DNA of 48,095 nucleotides from Bacteroides caecigallinarum. GTDB taxonomy: Bacteria; Bacteroidota; Bacteroidia; Bacteroidales; Bacteroidaceae. The position numbers were made by a program, and so were the translations under genes. Below the pieces are notes generated by a model. The model saw nothing but the letters and a program-made list of their open reading frames with translations, did no database searches and had not been told where the DNA came from. Within the stretch, counting starts at the first letter, position 1, and each line of letters begins with the position of its first letter. This document shows, piece by piece, positions 37,598 to 48,095 of the stretch. The stretch is from positions 1 through 48,095 of the forward strand of contig NZ_JADYTF010000012.1 in the NCBI RefSeq assembly GCF_021530995.1, written 5' to 3'.

Positions 37598-38728
<1,131 letters not shown>

Positions 38729-38803
38729 TGACGATGCAAGGCTTCGGTATTTTTTAGTTATCATATAATAATCGGTATTTTTTTAAGATTTAAAAGTTAA
38801 AAA

Positions 38804-39277
38804 ATGAAGATATTATTTTGTCGTTTGTTGTTACCTTTATTTATGCTTCTGAGTGTAAAATCCGAAGCACAGGAGAAGAGTATAAATATATGTGATTCTT
38901 ATTATATGGAAAAACAAATTATATGTCACAAATTGCCGATGGAGGCAGACGGCATAGTCCGTCTATCGAAAATAGAGGTATATCCGGAATTCCTTGATGA
39001 ATATATTAAATATGCTGTAGAAGTAGGGGAGATTTCCTTGCTTACTGAACCAGGGGTGTTGACTATGTATGCTGTGAGTGAAAAAGATAATCCTTGCAAG
39101 GTTACCATTCTTGAAACCTATGCAAGTAAAGCCGCTTATGAACAGCATATAGCTTCAGAGCACTTTCAAAAGTACAAGCAAGGAACACTCCACATGGTAA
39201 AAAGTCTTTTACTTTCCGACCAAATACCTCTTAATCCGAATAGTCATATCGATAATGTTATCCGGCGGCTGTATTAA
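38804..39277 (+). CDS. Exported ABM-domain (antibiotic biosynthesis monooxygenase-like) protein
   Basis: This is a 157-residue protein with a signal peptide (about 1-22, ending SEAQ) and a ferredoxin-like ABM domain over about 45-135. LSKIEVYPEFLDEYIKYAVEVG and ILETYASKAAYEQHIASEHFQKY match the helix-strand pattern of the family, which includes quinol monooxygenases and haem-degrading proteins. It lies 75 nt after the reductase on the same strand. Its end overlaps the convergent SDR gene by 4 nt. A role with quinone-like compounds is inferred only. Confidence 0.8.
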   Translation: MKILFCRLLLPLFMLLSVKSEAQEKSINICDSYYMEKQIICHKLPMEADGIVRLSKIEVYPEFLDEYIKYAVEVGEISLLTEPGVLTMYAVSEKDNPCKVTILETYASKAAYEQHIASEHFQKYKQGTLHMVKSLLLSDQIPLNPNSHIDNVIRRLY

Positions 39278-41806: not shown

Positions 41807-41996
41807 AATGGAATTGTCTTTTATTTGTTTAATAAATCAAGTTATTTCCAAAAACGATGCGAACTTACAAAAAATAAAATTAATCATCTACAGGTATGAA
41901 AGAAATGTATATAAAAAATGAATATAATGTAAATGTCAGCCGATTAAACCTTGTTTTTGATTTTTACTATCCAACTTCATTTATCACTTTTCCTGT

Positions 41997-42212
41997 TTAC
42001 GCGTTCAAGTAATCCTCTTTCTTCAACTTGTTTTTCAGATACTTCCAGTAGTTCCTGTTCTTGGTATAATCATCTTGGGCATTTAGCACGCCTACAATAT
42101 CTAGTACAGAAAACCACCATTTGGAATTCTTGTCATCCCAAATGGCACGTACTTCTCTGTCATCAAAGAAACGGATGGATATTTTATTTATTTTGGTTAT
42201 AATTAGAATCGT
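41997..42212 (-). pseudogene. Fragment of a Bro-N-domain (antirepressor-like) gene
   Basis: A minus-strand frame of about 70 codons encodes IRFFDDREVRAIWDD, KWWFSVLDIVGVL and YWKYLKNKLKKE, the N-terminal pattern of Bro-N proteins related to phage antirepressors. No proper ATG starts it; the frame opens with ATT after an in-frame stop. It ends in a stop right after the first part of the domain, so most of the usual protein is missing. It is a remnant of a mobile or phage-related gene. Confidence 0.7.
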
Positions 42213-42229
42213 TTATCTGCCTTTCTGTC

Positions 42230-42554
42230 TCATATTCTGAACTGTACTCCACGGTATGACTTTACACGATAACCTACACTGATTATCATGTCAAGGTTAT
42301 AGTAAGCTACTTTATATTTTTTATTGTCAGAGGCAGTTGTTGCAAAAAATGCAACAACTGAGTCCGGATTCACTCTCCGTCTTCGAATACATTATTAATA
42401 TGTCGGGAAATGGTAGATTTGTTTCTCTGGAACAGTTCTGCCATTTGTTCGGCTGTAAGCCAAACCGTATCATTGCATAGAGTAACTTCTATCCTTGATT
42501 TGCCATCCTCCGTCTGGTAGAGAATTATATTTCCATAGTTTTGCTCTCATTCAT
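42230..42554 (-). pseudogene. Decayed RhuM-family gene
   Basis: Minus-strand pieces match the virulence protein RhuM family. One frame reads ILYQTEDGKSRIEV, VWLTAEQMAELFQRNKSTIS and HINNVFEDGE, then stops. After a one-base frame change the match goes on with DSVVAFFATTASDNK and YYNLDMIISVGYRVKS up to QFRI. There a TGA stands where the family has tryptophan. The start ATG at 42554 is also out of frame with the first piece. RhuM genes often sit in restriction or defence loci. This copy is clearly dead. Confidence 0.8.
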
Positions 42555-42565
42555 GGTCGATTCTT

Positions 42566-45500
42566 TTATTTTAATCGGATATTATTTCCAATATACTCAA
42601 TCTTCCCTTGATTTCTCAGTACTTCCAAAGCCTTTTTAAAAGCTGTTTCAACATTTGTTCCACGTCGTGTGAAACCAAGTTTTTTGGCTGCAATCAGTGT
42701 CAGACTGTCTTCGTCAACAGCTACCTGTTCAAATAGCGATTCTTTAATTACATTCAACAACTCTATCTGTGGAATATCTATAATGTCACGATTAGAATTA
42801 GGTCTGTATATCTGATAATTATGACTGTCTGATTTGCTTAACCACATTATTCCATTATCATCTTTATAAAAAGATGGCTCATACATACTAAGAGTTTTCT
42901 GAAGGGTTGGAGTTACTCTTCCACTACCACGCAACGAACAAACTCGTCGGCAAAGAAGCATAAAAGTAATAGGTTGTTCAGTTGAAATAATATTTTTCAT
43001 AAGTGTTTCATCTGATAAACTTATAGCTTCTGCCTTGTTGGTATTATAGCAGATATATTCCCGTGCATTTAGAGAACAATCTTCCAACTTTTCTTGAGAG
43101 ATGTCAAAAGACTTAATCTGAGATCTCTGTTCAGTTTCAGATTCAGAAGAAAGACGTTCTATGATACGATTTATCACTCTTTCTTTATTATTAAACCAAT
43201 CTACACTCCAAACACGCATCACTTGCCAGTTTAATGCCGAAAGGACAGAAGGTTGTACTACCTCGCGGTCGCGTGTAGTATGAGTATCGCGATATCCCTC
43301 ACCGTCCAAAAGAATACCGAGACGATATGTGTCAGCTTTATTTTCATCGCAAATTGCCACATCTACCTTGAATTGTGAGCGACCAATATTTGTTGCTACT
43401 GTATAGCCTCTTTTCTTCAGTTCTGTTGCAATCTGTTCAGCCAGTAGGTTATCATTAAAATACTTGTCATTATGTTGTGAAGATGAAGGCAATGACTGTG
43501 TTTCGGCATATTGTAGAAAATGTTTCAGTCCCTCCACGCCGCGAGCTTTTGAACGACGCAAATCAATATCAGATGATTTCAACGTAGAGAATACATACAT
43601 CTCCTGACGTGCACGGCTTACTGCAACATTAAGACGGCGCTCACCACCTGAATTGTTCAACGGGCCAAAATTCATGGAAATTTTTCCATCTTTATCTGGT
43701 CCATATCCGATAGAGAAAAGTATTACATCTCGTTCATCTCCCTGAACATTCTCCAGATTTTTCACAAAGACGGGTTCATACATTTGCTGAATGATATCCT
43801 GTAAAGTATTGTCTTTTTCCAGTTGTTCCTGCAACAAATCTTCTATCAGACTTTGTTGAACAACACTGAATGCAATCACACCTATACTTTTCTTTTGTAA
43901 TTCTTCGTCTCTAAGTCTGCGGACGATTTCTTCTACAATTACTTTTGCTTCTGTCAGATTGCAACGTTTTCCGCCTTTGTCATAATAACCCGAAACGTGA
44001 ACATAATGTACTTTGGTATGCTGGTCATCAATAGAGGGGAATGTAATCAGAGAACCATCATAATACTCGTTATTCGAAAAAGCAATCAAACTTTCGTGAC
44101 GTGAACGGTAATGCCATGAGAGCTGTAAGGATGGAATCTCAAGAGTTCGACAATCTTCAAGAATACTTTCCATGTCATCAATGCATGCTTCTTCAATATC
44201 TACATTAGTAGAAGAGAAGAAACTGGTTGGCGGCATCTGCTTGGGGTCACCTACTACGACAAGTGATTTTCCACGGGCTATTGCACCAACCGCTTCGCTT
44301 GTTGGCATCTGGGAAGCTTCATCAAATATTACTAAATCGAATTTATCCTGACAGAGATTAATATATTGTGCTACACTCATCGGACTCATCAGCATACACG
44401 GACACAAACGTGGTAGTAAGGTCGGTATTTGTTCAAATAAATCGCGTAAGGATAATCCACGTCCCCCATTACTGATATTGCGATTGAGTAAACCTATTTC
44501 ACTACCACTGCTCGCATTGTCGATAACACGCGGTATTCTGGTCGCTAATTTAGCATAAAGTTCTTTTTGTGTGAGTAATTGGAATTCATCTGTCATGCGT
44601 TTATAGGTAGCTACTTTGTCGTCAAAAAGCATACCTTCGAATGTAGCTAAAATTTCTGATTTACGGATTTTTTCTTCTGCTTTATATTGGAATAAAGCTT
44701 TTAGATAGGTATTGCGCACAACAGTTGTATCCATACTTTGTGTTTGCATGACTTTAACCACACACTCCAGTCCATTCACTTTAAGTTCATTACAAAATTC
44801 AGACCAATGAAGCCAGTCGCGCATCAGGGCAGAATTTTCTGCCCATCGTTTCATTTTGCCCATGGCAGTTTCGATGATACTGTTTTCCGGCATTTCATCT
44901 GTTGGTGTTTCAATATCAAAGTATTGCTTCAGAATTTGTCTGATTTGTTCTATTTCCTCATGCTGTTTTTGATAAATGGCAAACTGGTTTATTAGTGAAT
45001 CAACTTCTTGCTCCCTAATGTATTGGTTGTATTGTTTCAAACGCCTAAGGAAACTGCGTTTGGCAAAGAAACGTGGTATGAACCATTTAGCTTTGATTTC
45101 ACGCCATGAAATACGTAGCTCTTCGGCATTTTCATTAAAGAATTCTAAAGAGTTGTCACGTAATAGCAGTTCATACAGTTCTTTTGTATGAGATAATTCA
45201 TGACTTTTCGACATCAGTACCTTCAGTACCTGTATTTTTTTATGAAGGTTCATGACTGTTTCTTCACTATGCTGTAACATATCCCGATTAATCTGGAATC
45301 CATTCAACGGGTGACATGATGGATGTCCTATCAATTTGACAACCGTATCAAAGCGTGTTCCTAGTAAATTCTCAACTCCTTTTATACCTTCTTTGGTTAG
45401 TAGTGAGTCCAGTGAAGAATTAAAACTGAAATTGTTCATAGGAGCAACGGATAAAGCTTCATATCGCAAGATGCAATCATAGAGAGATAATCCGTCTTTA

Positions 45501-47863
45501 GGCTCTTTTTCATGAAGAGCATTCATATATGCAATGAGTGCTTTGCGTTCTTCAAATATTTTGTTTGCCTGAAATTCGAAATTTTCAGGAGATTGGATGT
45601 GGGTAACTTGAAGAGCTTTTTCCAATTGTTGCAGTACATGCCGTTTAGTAGTTTTATTGGAATGAAGTTCCAAGCAGAAAGGATCAAGACCAATCTTTGC
45701 CAATCGGCTCTGTACTACACTAAGTGCTGCCATTTTCTCGGCAACAAAAAGCACACGCTTCCCTTGATAAAGGGCATTTGCTATCAGATTTGTAATTGTC
45801 TGCGATTTTCCGGTTCCGGGAGGACCATACAGGATAAACGAGTGCCCCTTACCTGCTTCTATTACAGCAGCCATCTGTGAAGAATCTACAGGAACCGGTA
45901 AAGCTATTTCTGCTGGTGAAATCTGCTGATCAATATTTCTTAAATTGTCAGTAATAGGTTCCGGAGTCCAAGTAAGTTTATTCTCTACCAGACTATTTAT
46001 AATATCGTTTTTGCGTAGCTCTTCTCTATGGCTATGTATATCATTCCACATGAGGAACTTACTGAAAGAGAAAGTACCTAACAAACATTCCTCCTCGACA
46101 TCCCAGCGTTTTTGCTCTTTCAGTGCTGCGCGAATAGCAGCAAAAATTAGAGGTACATCAACTCCACTCTCATCCTTTGGCAAAGGATCTAATCCATTTA
46201 CCTGAATCCCATAATTTTGCCTGATGAACTCTATTAGGGTTACATTTAGTGATATTTCTTCATCTCTTGTGCGAATATAGTATCTCCCCTTTTTATAGAC
46301 CATCTCTACAGGAAGTAATAATAAGGGGGCGTAACGCGGAGTTTCACTTTGTTGAGTTTCAAACCATCGAAGAGTACCTATAGTAAGAAATAATGAATTG
46401 GCTCCTGTTTCTTCAATTGCATTACGAGCTGCACGATATATATTCTTCAGCACATCTCGAGTTTCATTTTCGGTCTGATAAGTATGTAGCACATGATGCT
46501 CTATGTCGCTACGAATCAATTCATGTAATTGTTCGTGTAATTTTGAACGGACTAAACGTTCATTGTTGTCAAGCTGAAATTCAATATTTGGTTTTGAAAT
46601 AATGCAATATTCTTCACCATCCTGAAGATGATCTTCTATACGGTCTATATCAAAAGAAATGAATTGTATGGCTTTACGGCGTAAATAAAGGTTTAGTAAG
46701 GAATTTCGTAAGGAGAAGTCAAGCAATTTTCGTTCCCAAATATCAAACTTCGTAAGCTCTTTTTTCTTGTCTGTCATCAGGCTGAGGTCGTATCTGTCAT
46801 GCTCTTTTATTTCGAACAGGCATTGTTCATGTCCTACGCCTGTCTCTTCGAATGTCCATTCTCCATTAGTCAGTACTCTGGTCGGTAAAGGGAAAATCCG
46901 TTCCAGACGGCTTCTTTTAATGTCGATAAACAACTCAAAAACACTATGGTCTGCTAAATTCTGTTCTGCAATCTTTACAGCATTTTCAAATGAAGTCGTT
47001 TCCTGGGCTACCTGCGTACATTCAACGACAAGCATTTCATCAATGCCTCGTGAACATTTTTTTTCTATGTAAGAAGCATCATCGCATATACTACAGGAAT
47101 AACAGTCATCAACGAGCCATACCCCAAGATAGGCATGCCCTTTTTGAATTATCACAACAGTGTTGATTCCAATGCTTTCTAACACTGAAGCCATAAGAAG
47201 GGTAAGCTCAATACAATTTCCAATTTTGATAGATATTACTTGGTCTGGCATTGTAATACGTTGGCCGATATCTTCATAACTTGCTGGCACACTGCGATAA
47301 ACAATTCCAAGCTGATGTACGGCTGTAAAAACGGCAGCAACTTGCAAACGCACATCATTACTGTTGCAAGTCTGATAGGCAGTCAGTACAGAAGAACCTG
47401 TTACTTTTTTTAAGGCTTCAGCTGTTTTGACTACCAAACTGTTGATAGCCGGATGATTAGGAGTTACAAACGAAACAAGAGTTTGTGGCAGAATAGTAAT
47501 CCCCAACCAATGATCGTATGGCATTAATTCTATTTCGTACTGTTTCTCTTCTATAATTTCGTCCTGACTTGTTACTGTTAAAGTAAAATATGTTACAATC
47601 CTTTCTGTTAATACCGCCAGTTTTGACGCATCAGGAGATATTTCAAAAGACATTACACGCACCGTTTCTCCTGCGTTAATTCGTCCTATTAGATAGCTCT
47701 CGTACTCTTTGATGAATTCCCCTTTACAGCATACCTTTACATCATTCAAATGTTGAACCGAAATATTGGTTACATTAACCGATTGACAAACAGGTATTCG
47801 ATTATGAAACAATGCATAGTTTACCGTTTTTATATAATCTATATCTATATTAACTGATTTCAT
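42566..47863 (-). CDS. Giant DUF4011-helicase-nuclease protein, Hhe-type defence candidate
   Basis: This is a 1765-residue multidomain protein. A transglutaminase-like region (about 190-280) has C217 and H243. DUF4011 begins near residue 370 with IWERKLLDFSLRNSLLNLYL. The SF1 helicase has Walker A GPPGTGKS at 680-687, Walker B FDEAS with D1181, WHYRSRHE near 1250, NVQGDERD near 1373 and NVAVSRARQE near 1413. A long helical insertion lies at about 880-1120. A Vsr/MTES_1575-like nuclease region follows, with D1501 and LLDGEGY (D1520, E1522). A C-terminal winged-helix-like DUF3320-type tail (about 1650-1765) ends the protein. As I recall it, DUF4011-helicase-Vsr genes have been reported as the anti-phage system Hhe. 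It stands alone next to decayed RhuM and Bro-N genes. Base and length are intact. Confidence 0.9.
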   Translation of the reverse strand: MKSVNIDIDYIKTVNYALFHNRIPVCQSVNVTNISVQHLNDVKVCCKGEFIKEYESYLIGRINAGETVRVMSFEISPDASKLAVLTERIVTYFTLTVTSQDEIIEEKQYEIELMPYDHWLGITILPQTLVSFVTPNHPAINSLVVKTAEALKKVTGSSVLTAYQTCNSNDVRLQVAAVFTAVHQLGIVYRSVPASYEDIGQRITMPDQVISIKIGNCIELTLLMASVLESIGINTVVIIQKGHAYLGVWLVDDCYSCSICDDASYIEKKCSRGIDEMLVVECTQVAQETTSFENAVKIAEQNLADHSVFELFIDIKRSRLERIFPLPTRVLTNGEWTFEETGVGHEQCLFEIKEHDRYDLSLMTDKKKELTKFDIWERKLLDFSLRNSLLNLYLRRKAIQFISFDIDRIEDHLQDGEEYCIISKPNIEFQLDNNERLVRSKLHEQLHELIRSDIEHHVLHTYQTENETRDVLKNIYRAARNAIEETGANSLFLTIGTLRWFETQQSETPRYAPLLLLPVEMVYKKGRYYIRTRDEEISLNVTLIEFIRQNYGIQVNGLDPLPKDESGVDVPLIFAAIRAALKEQKRWDVEEECLLGTFSFSKFLMWNDIHSHREELRKNDIINSLVENKLTWTPEPITDNLRNIDQQISPAEIALPVPVDSSQMAAVIEAGKGHSFILYGPPGTGKSQTITNLIANALYQGKRVLFVAEKMAALSVVQSRLAKIGLDPFCLELHSNKTTKRHVLQQLEKALQVTHIQSPENFEFQANKIFEERKALIAYMNALHEKEPKDGLSLYDCILRYEALSVAPMNNFSFNSSLDSLLTKEGIKGVENLLGTRFDTVVKLIGHPSCHPLNGFQINRDMLQHSEETVMNLHKKIQVLKVLMSKSHELSHTKELYELLLRDNSLEFFNENAEELRISWREIKAKWFIPRFFAKRSFLRRLKQYNQYIREQEVDSLINQFAIYQKQHEEIEQIRQILKQYFDIETPTDEMPENSIIETAMGKMKRWAENSALMRDWLHWSEFCNELKVNGLECVVKVMQTQSMDTTVVRNTYLKALFQYKAEEKIRKSEILATFEGMLFDDKVATYKRMTDEFQLLTQKELYAKLATRIPRVIDNASSGSEIGLLNRNISNGGRGLSLRDLFEQIPTLLPRLCPCMLMSPMSVAQYINLCQDKFDLVIFDEASQMPTSEAVGAIARGKSLVVVGDPKQMPPTSFFSSTNVDIEEACIDDMESILEDCRTLEIPSLQLSWHYRSRHESLIAFSNNEYYDGSLITFPSIDDQHTKVHYVHVSGYYDKGGKRCNLTEAKVIVEEIVRRLRDEELQKKSIGVIAFSVVQQSLIEDLLQEQLEKDNTLQDIIQQMYEPVFVKNLENVQGDERDVILFSIGYGPDKDGKISMNFGPLNNSGGERRLNVAVSRARQEMYVFSTLKSSDIDLRRSKARGVEGLKHFLQYAETQSLPSSSQHNDKYFNDNLLAEQIATELKKRGYTVATNIGRSQFKVDVAICDENKADTYRLGILLDGEGYRDTHTTRDREVVQPSVLSALNWQVMRVWSVDWFNNKERVINRIIERLSSESETEQRSQIKSFDISQEKLEDCSLNAREYICYNTNKAEAISLSDETLMKNIISTEQPITFMLLCRRVCSLRGSGRVTPTLQKTLSMYEPSFYKDDNGIMWLSKSDSHNYQIYRPNSNRDIIDIPQIELLNVIKESLFEQVAVDEDSLTLIAAKKLGFTRRGTNVETAFKKALEVLRNQGKIEYIGNNIRLK

Positions 47864-48095
47864 TGTATATGTATTTTTCTTTTTTTATCATGTCAAAATC
47901 AGGAATTTCATATACCTTCATTTAATCCATACATAAAGATGATGTAAGAGAAGTAATACTCATTAAGTGTGTTGATATATTTCTTCTTTTATATATTATA
48001 AAGTTTTGTCTTATTCGAAAGTAATTACTGTTTATTTGTATTTCCACTGCATATTAATTACTTTAAATAAGCGTGTTATTTCTACAATACAAAGA
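47864..48095. other. AT-rich upstream region of the giant helicase gene
   Basis: No gene, RNA or clear promoter was recognised in this stretch up to the window edge. It presumably holds the promoter of the helicase gene. Confidence 0.4.

Follow-up and report, generated by a model that had tools for sequence, protein, structure and literature searches.

An intact ProA-family helicase-nuclease gene with an N-terminal transglutaminase-like module at a strain-variable site in Bacteroides caecigallinarum

The window, i.e. the whole stretch of 48,095 bp analysed here, is a complete contig of Bacteroides caecigallinarum. It carries on the minus strand a single uninterrupted frame of 1765 codons (42566-47863), which opens with an ATG at 47863, closes with a stop codon at 42566-42568 and has no stop inside. 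The contig ends only 232 bp upstream of this gene, a point that the first-pass annotation overlooked, and no promoter is recognisable in these 232 bp. The gene, its domains and its surroundings are as follows.

41934..48095, no strand: strain-variable segment, left part of an island; synteny ends at 41927-41933, the right end is off the contig and the right flank is on contig C372
42012..42200, minus: dead Bro-N-Fic N-terminal fragment lacking its start codon and 3' part; aligned with the G000:C82 copy beside hsdM and hsdS
42230..42554, minus: dead RhuM-family fragment with frameshifts and a small deletion; 89% copy at G000:C82, PF13310 in that copy
42566..47863, minus: ProA-family gene, 1765 aa, intact; open frame, NF058533 1795.9 bits against 1500, PDC-S37 1092 bits
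42569..43051, minus: two predicted winged-helix domains, aa 1605-1765, the first overlapping a degenerate DUF3320; AlphaFold2, Foldseek, sub-threshold DUF3320
43151..43438, minus: MTES_1575 nuclease (Vsr-type REase fold), aa 1476-1571; PF18741, E 3.4e-23
43586..44359, minus: SF1 helicase, second half (DEAS, GDPKQMPPT, QGDERD, VSRAR), aa 1169-1426; AAA_11/AAA_12
44534..45523, minus: variable region between the helicase halves, aa 781-1110; alignment gaps, low conservation (0.31-0.5)
45575..45883, minus: SF1 (Upf1-like) helicase, first half, aa 661-763; AAA_11/AAA_19
46226..46729, minus: DUF4011, aa 379-546; PF13195, E 3.5e-38, 138 bits
46829..47518, minus: transglutaminase-like peptidase domain (Cys217, His243, Asp261/Asp262), aa 116-345; PF01841 in homologues, triad, fold matches
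47519..47863, minus: Ig-like beta-sandwich, aa 1-115; all-beta in AlphaFold2, some ~120-column Foldseek matches to beta-sandwich proteins

The first-pass annotation had described an intact giant combining DUF4011, an SF1 helicase and a Vsr/MTES-like nuclease, and had assigned it to the Hhe type. The giant is indeed there, at full length and with conserved motifs, but the assignment does not hold. The whole protein passes the cut-off of the NCBIfam model NF058533 (antiphage_ProA, a curated equivalog of 1903 positions for 'anti-phage protein ProA') with 1795.9 bits against 1500, or 1796 bits when the gene is searched as DNA, and it fails that of the Hhe equivalog NF042953, scoring 759.1 bits against a curated cut-off of 2000. 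PADLOC likewise prefers PDC-S37, its top profile (1092.2 bits in two stretches, the best covering positions 703-1544 of 1550), over Hhe, which reaches 527 bits and is matched in two pieces only (best aa 996-1590). Given the cut-off passed, the cut-off failed and the PADLOC preference, the profiles identify the gene as a ProA/PDC-S37 protein and membership in Hhe is rejected. That both profiles match the same protein suggests that PDC-S37 and ProA are probably one family. The NF058533 match comes in three stretches, of which the best covers profile positions 1-877, because the middle region of the window protein is short; its score is some 80-480 bits below those of full-length long-form ProA proteins. 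Our literature search found no paper reporting ProA experiments or an original description, and the name rests on NCBIfam.

Matches in Pfam to DUF4011, both helicase halves and MTES_1575 are far beyond chance. The AAA_11 and AAA_12 halves of the split SF1 helicase lie about 400 aa apart, with the Walker A motif GPPGTGKS at aa 680-687, and the nearest solved helicases, SMUBP-2, SEN1 and UPF1, are also the sole solved structures that the protein matches by sequence. In the alignment, the variable region between the halves is shorter in the window protein than in long-form relatives, and the homologues fall into two length classes (1765-1813 and 1820-2019 aa). This alignment holds 71 homologues, one row of which (L068) is probably in the wrong frame and is an outlier in the tree. 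The helicase motifs of the second half, including motif II (DEAS), are conserved in 70 of the 71, and nuclease residues D1501, D1520 and Y1524 in all of them; when the helicase motifs are taken with D1501, D1520-G1521, Y1524 and R1531-D1532-R1533, conservation extends to at least 69. Every predicted catalytic motif is present in the window protein. At the C-terminus, the AlphaFold2 model of aa 1440-1765 combines two confident winged helices with a nuclease-like part that is mixed alpha/beta and modelled at moderate confidence. Foldseek aligns isolated winged-helix domains to this model at 2-3 Å, and returned no whole-chain relative and no match below E 0.001; the nuclease is therefore called from its Pfam match together with its conserved residues. 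Of the profiles proposed earlier, DUF4011, AAA_11/AAA_12 and MTES_1575 were thus recovered, but DUF3320 stays below threshold in the window protein (E 0.054, 13.9 bits against a cut-off of 25), being above it in the homologue L002.

The earlier domain reading stood for the helicase-nuclease core and missed what precedes it. The first 345 residues comprise an Ig-like domain and, after it, a transglutaminase-like peptidase domain, modelled by AlphaFold2 with a mean pLDDT of 91. Foldseek matches this N-terminus to transglutaminases, to a putative protease of Parabacteroides and to axonemal transglutaminase-like proteins, the last of which are also matched by sequence; some 120-column matches probably stem from the Ig-like half. 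A PDB profile search with the N-terminal alignment gave no match. PF01841 is weak in the window protein itself (E 0.023) and matches 23 of 37 homologues (best E 1.1e-7), and the Cys-His-Asp triad (C217, H243, D261/D262) is conserved in 67-69 of the 71. Seven homologues have no transglutaminase-like peptidase in frame: two (L040, L100) retain the Ig-like part and continue directly into DUF4011, as expected from a clean internal deletion, and five (L089, L091, L098, L099, L101) start at DUF4011 or just before. Because of these seven, and of the two clean deletions among them, the predicted peptidase is best described as an evolutionarily dispensable add-on to the helicase-nuclease core.

These variants bear on the possibility that the protein is an abortive-infection device, with the transglutaminase-like peptidase as effector and the helicase-nuclease as sensor. 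Such a device would fit with the near-invariance of the triad wherever the domain occurs, and with the occurrence in the genus of membrane-anchored versions that stand alone and carry the same Cys, His and Asp. Yet an indispensable effector would not go missing as it does in the seven homologues, and we regard this explanation as quite unlikely. As to the stand-alone versions, many genomes of the genus encode a protein of ~400 aa whose N-terminus carries a membrane helix and which shows a ProA-like Ig-like/transglutaminase-like arrangement (NC..H..D; loci L009, L011-L018, L020 and L021; e.g. L175:5708-6916), adjoining dnaN-like genes at the three loci inspected.

The site of the gene varies among close relatives, as the first-pass annotation had anticipated for a defence gene. 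Over the compared stretches between 35.8 and 40.0 kb of the left flank, the window shares 97-98% identity with genomes of three species (G017, G065 and G027), and over 40.0-41.9 kb it shares 90-93%; all three break synteny at 41927-41933 and none carries the ProA gene. Beyond the breakpoint, G027 has a cNMP-binding regulator and then an acyltransferase, G065 matches G027 up to its contig end, and the first gene of G017 is an HU-HIG gene. The same HU-HIG gene starts contig C372, which holds the right flank in the window's own genome. The ProA segment would then sit in an interval of ~120 bp in G017, the C33-C372 adjacency being deduced from relatives since the two contigs do not overlap. With the right end of the island off the contig, our search of the site gave no convincing insertion repeats or tRNA; the window neighbours scanned include no methyltransferase, the 5' side of the island also lying off the contig. 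Two further stretches of the window, 37744-38475 and 38736-39273, are missing from G017; they lie within the genes for an aldo/keto reductase and an ABM monooxygenase, both intact in the window. At a strict threshold, ProA is present in 9 of the 61 genomes in the genus and in 55 of the 298 in the family. A decayed ProA-like gene with in-frame stops lies in another genome of the genus (G066:C1:2736002-2741399).

Downstream of ProA lies debris. The 540 bp right after its stop match, at 89%, contig C82 of the same genome (L140, G000:C82:1-4625), a type I R-M operon comprising hsdM, a 5' fragment of RhuM, a Bro-N-Fic gene and hsdS. The dead RhuM and Bro-N neighbours noted at first pass are thus real, both aligning at 89% to this less damaged copy, and the alignment identifies them as remains of a type I R-M operon. 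Homology to C82 starts just past the ProA stop, near the end of hsdM in C82, so that ProA takes the position of an hsdM. The simplest reading would be that one defence locus overwrote another.

The tree of 71 proteins places the window protein as sister to a protein of an uncultured Parabacteroides (82%), both within a clade with Muribaculaceae, and far from the copies of the same genus (L003, L004), with the proviso that binning errors in metagenome-assembled genomes may affect single rows. Horizontal acquisition is the best explanation for this pattern. The GC content of the gene is 0.38 against 0.417 and its codon usage lies inside the range of the other window genes, so composition was not used as evidence of transfer. 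The vehicles that we considered were rejected: for phages, the only match (43.5%) is to one unannotated faecal phage contig, and all plasmid matches are below 60%. The best of the latter is to B. finegoldii NZ_OY725931.1 (L174), a record classed as plasmid 29; with its rpsA and glutamine synthetase III genes, it resembles a fragment of chromosome that was circularised during assembly. Distant homologues are carried by a conjugative plasmid of Pseudomonas and by an Acinetobacter plasmid, there in a region rich in toxin-antitoxin genes. The closest homologue adjoins the candidate defence gene PDC-M29A, and homologue neighbourhoods include several R-M, Vsr and candidate defence genes, counted without a control set, so that we claim no enrichment.

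The gene is under strong purifying selection. Compared with its 82% homologue (L025), dN is 0.099 and dS 1.117, a ratio of ~0.09; all domains are constrained, DUF4011 and the helicase halves most. One might speculate that the gene is silent, carried along by a mobile element or a decaying island and useless to the strain now, given the R-M debris directly downstream, the decayed copy in G066 and the lack of a recognisable promoter. But the full-length frame, the complete set of motifs and the low dN/dS along the path to the 82% homologue are at odds with this idea, which we consider highly improbable.

Other members of the family are found at fixed places. Both ProA flanks are common to 10-11 genomes of one Bacteroides-like sister genus (g27), and the B. 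finegoldii copy adjoins rpsA. In about 11 Prevotella, long-form relatives (L065, L069-L072, L074, L078, L079, L086, L090, L092) have the same radical SAM gene as neighbour and ftsX-, uppP-, truB- and queA-like genes further up, as named from inspection of the sequences. The Prevotella locus resembles the DUF4011-radical SAM pair flanking a defence hotspot of P. aeruginosa, in which the DUF4011 gene next to the hotspot is present in every isolate (PMC10250203). Since such loci lie beside housekeeping genes, family membership alone is no proof of a mobile defence role. Such a role is nevertheless what the variable site of the window gene, its transfer and the adjoining debris indicate.

The fixed loci in Bacteroides and Prevotella, and the DUF4011 gene conserved in all P. 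aeruginosa, could suggest a helicase-nuclease for DNA repair or genome maintenance that is not mainly defensive, its patchiness reflecting ordinary gain and loss. This is at odds with the low carriage in genus and family at the strict threshold, with the absence of the gene from near-identical relatives and with the match to a curated anti-phage equivalog, and we find it unlikely. The check for a housekeeping family or a universally conserved locus, which would have spoken against the first-pass proposal, came out in favour of defence for this gene, some relatives at fixed loci notwithstanding. A speculative reading, to which we give limited credence, would have ProA as a modular immune protein whose peptidase is optional and serves as a second weapon or as a switch. 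The family would exist in two forms, one mobile and strain-variable, as in the window, the other settled next to housekeeping genes in Bacteroides and Prevotella and perhaps domesticated there for genome maintenance.

Our preferred reading, at a probability of about 0.72, is that the gene encodes a ProA (PDC-S37) anti-phage restriction factor, a single giant protein acquired horizontally and placed at a variable chromosomal site. An anti-phage role, proposed at first pass, is probable given the curated ProA equivalog and the variable site beside what is left of another defence locus. In the mechanism that we envisage, DUF4011 and the C-terminal winged helices would recognise invading DNA or load onto it, the Upf1-like SF1 motor would translocate along it at the expense of ATP and the Vsr-type nuclease would cut it. 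Because no modification gene accompanies ProA in the assembled part, methylation would not be what protects self DNA; the protein might instead tell it apart by a DNA end, a structure or the state of replication. As the core occurs without the peptidase in relatives, the latter would be accessory, cleaving a phage protein or ProA itself as a switch.

The window gene is thus an intact, recently acquired and good example of an already named family of giant proteins that probably shield gut bacteria against phages, and no new system. It offers a clean case of presence and absence for a large anti-phage family on which our literature search found no mechanism paper, and the peptidase module, together with its natural peptidase-less variants, lets the roles of peptidase and helicase-nuclease be separated experimentally. 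It also carries a caution, as an assignment from its domains only (DUF4011, helicase, Vsr) would have put the gene in the wrong family, Hhe.

How does this protein compare with known systems? Its helicase core is like that of the SF1B enzymes UPF1, SMUBP-2 and SEN1, but these are eukaryotic RNA/DNA helicases without nuclease or DUF4011. With Hhe it shares the order DUF4011, SF1 helicase and Vsr-type nuclease in Pfam. PDC-S37 is a PADLOC candidate single-gene defence system for which the literature search found no published experiments. A 2013 description of MTES_1575-type giants with HEPN, transglutaminase, SF1 helicase, Vsr and wHTH domains predicted that they restrict DNA independently of modification, and proposed DNA recognition for the C-terminal winged helices and protein cleavage for the transglutaminase domain (PMC3710099). 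The window protein has in common with these giants the transglutaminase, the SF1 helicase, the Vsr-type nuclease and the C-terminal winged helices. HEPN is theirs: no such domain appeared in the window protein, among the best 25 of 35 whole-protein Pfam matches or in a separate scan of aa 1-345, and its N-terminus is modelled as Ig-like plus transglutaminase-like. Members of ProA NF058533 show the same order as the window protein, from Ig-like and transglutaminase-like through DUF4011, SF1 helicase and MTES_1575 to DUF3320/winged helices. The transglutaminase-like module, unstated by NCBIfam, is a feature of the members seen here, and the window protein has both module and triad. Relative to the ProA model, it is ~140 aa shorter, mostly owing to the variable region that separates the helicase halves, and its DUF3320 is degenerate.
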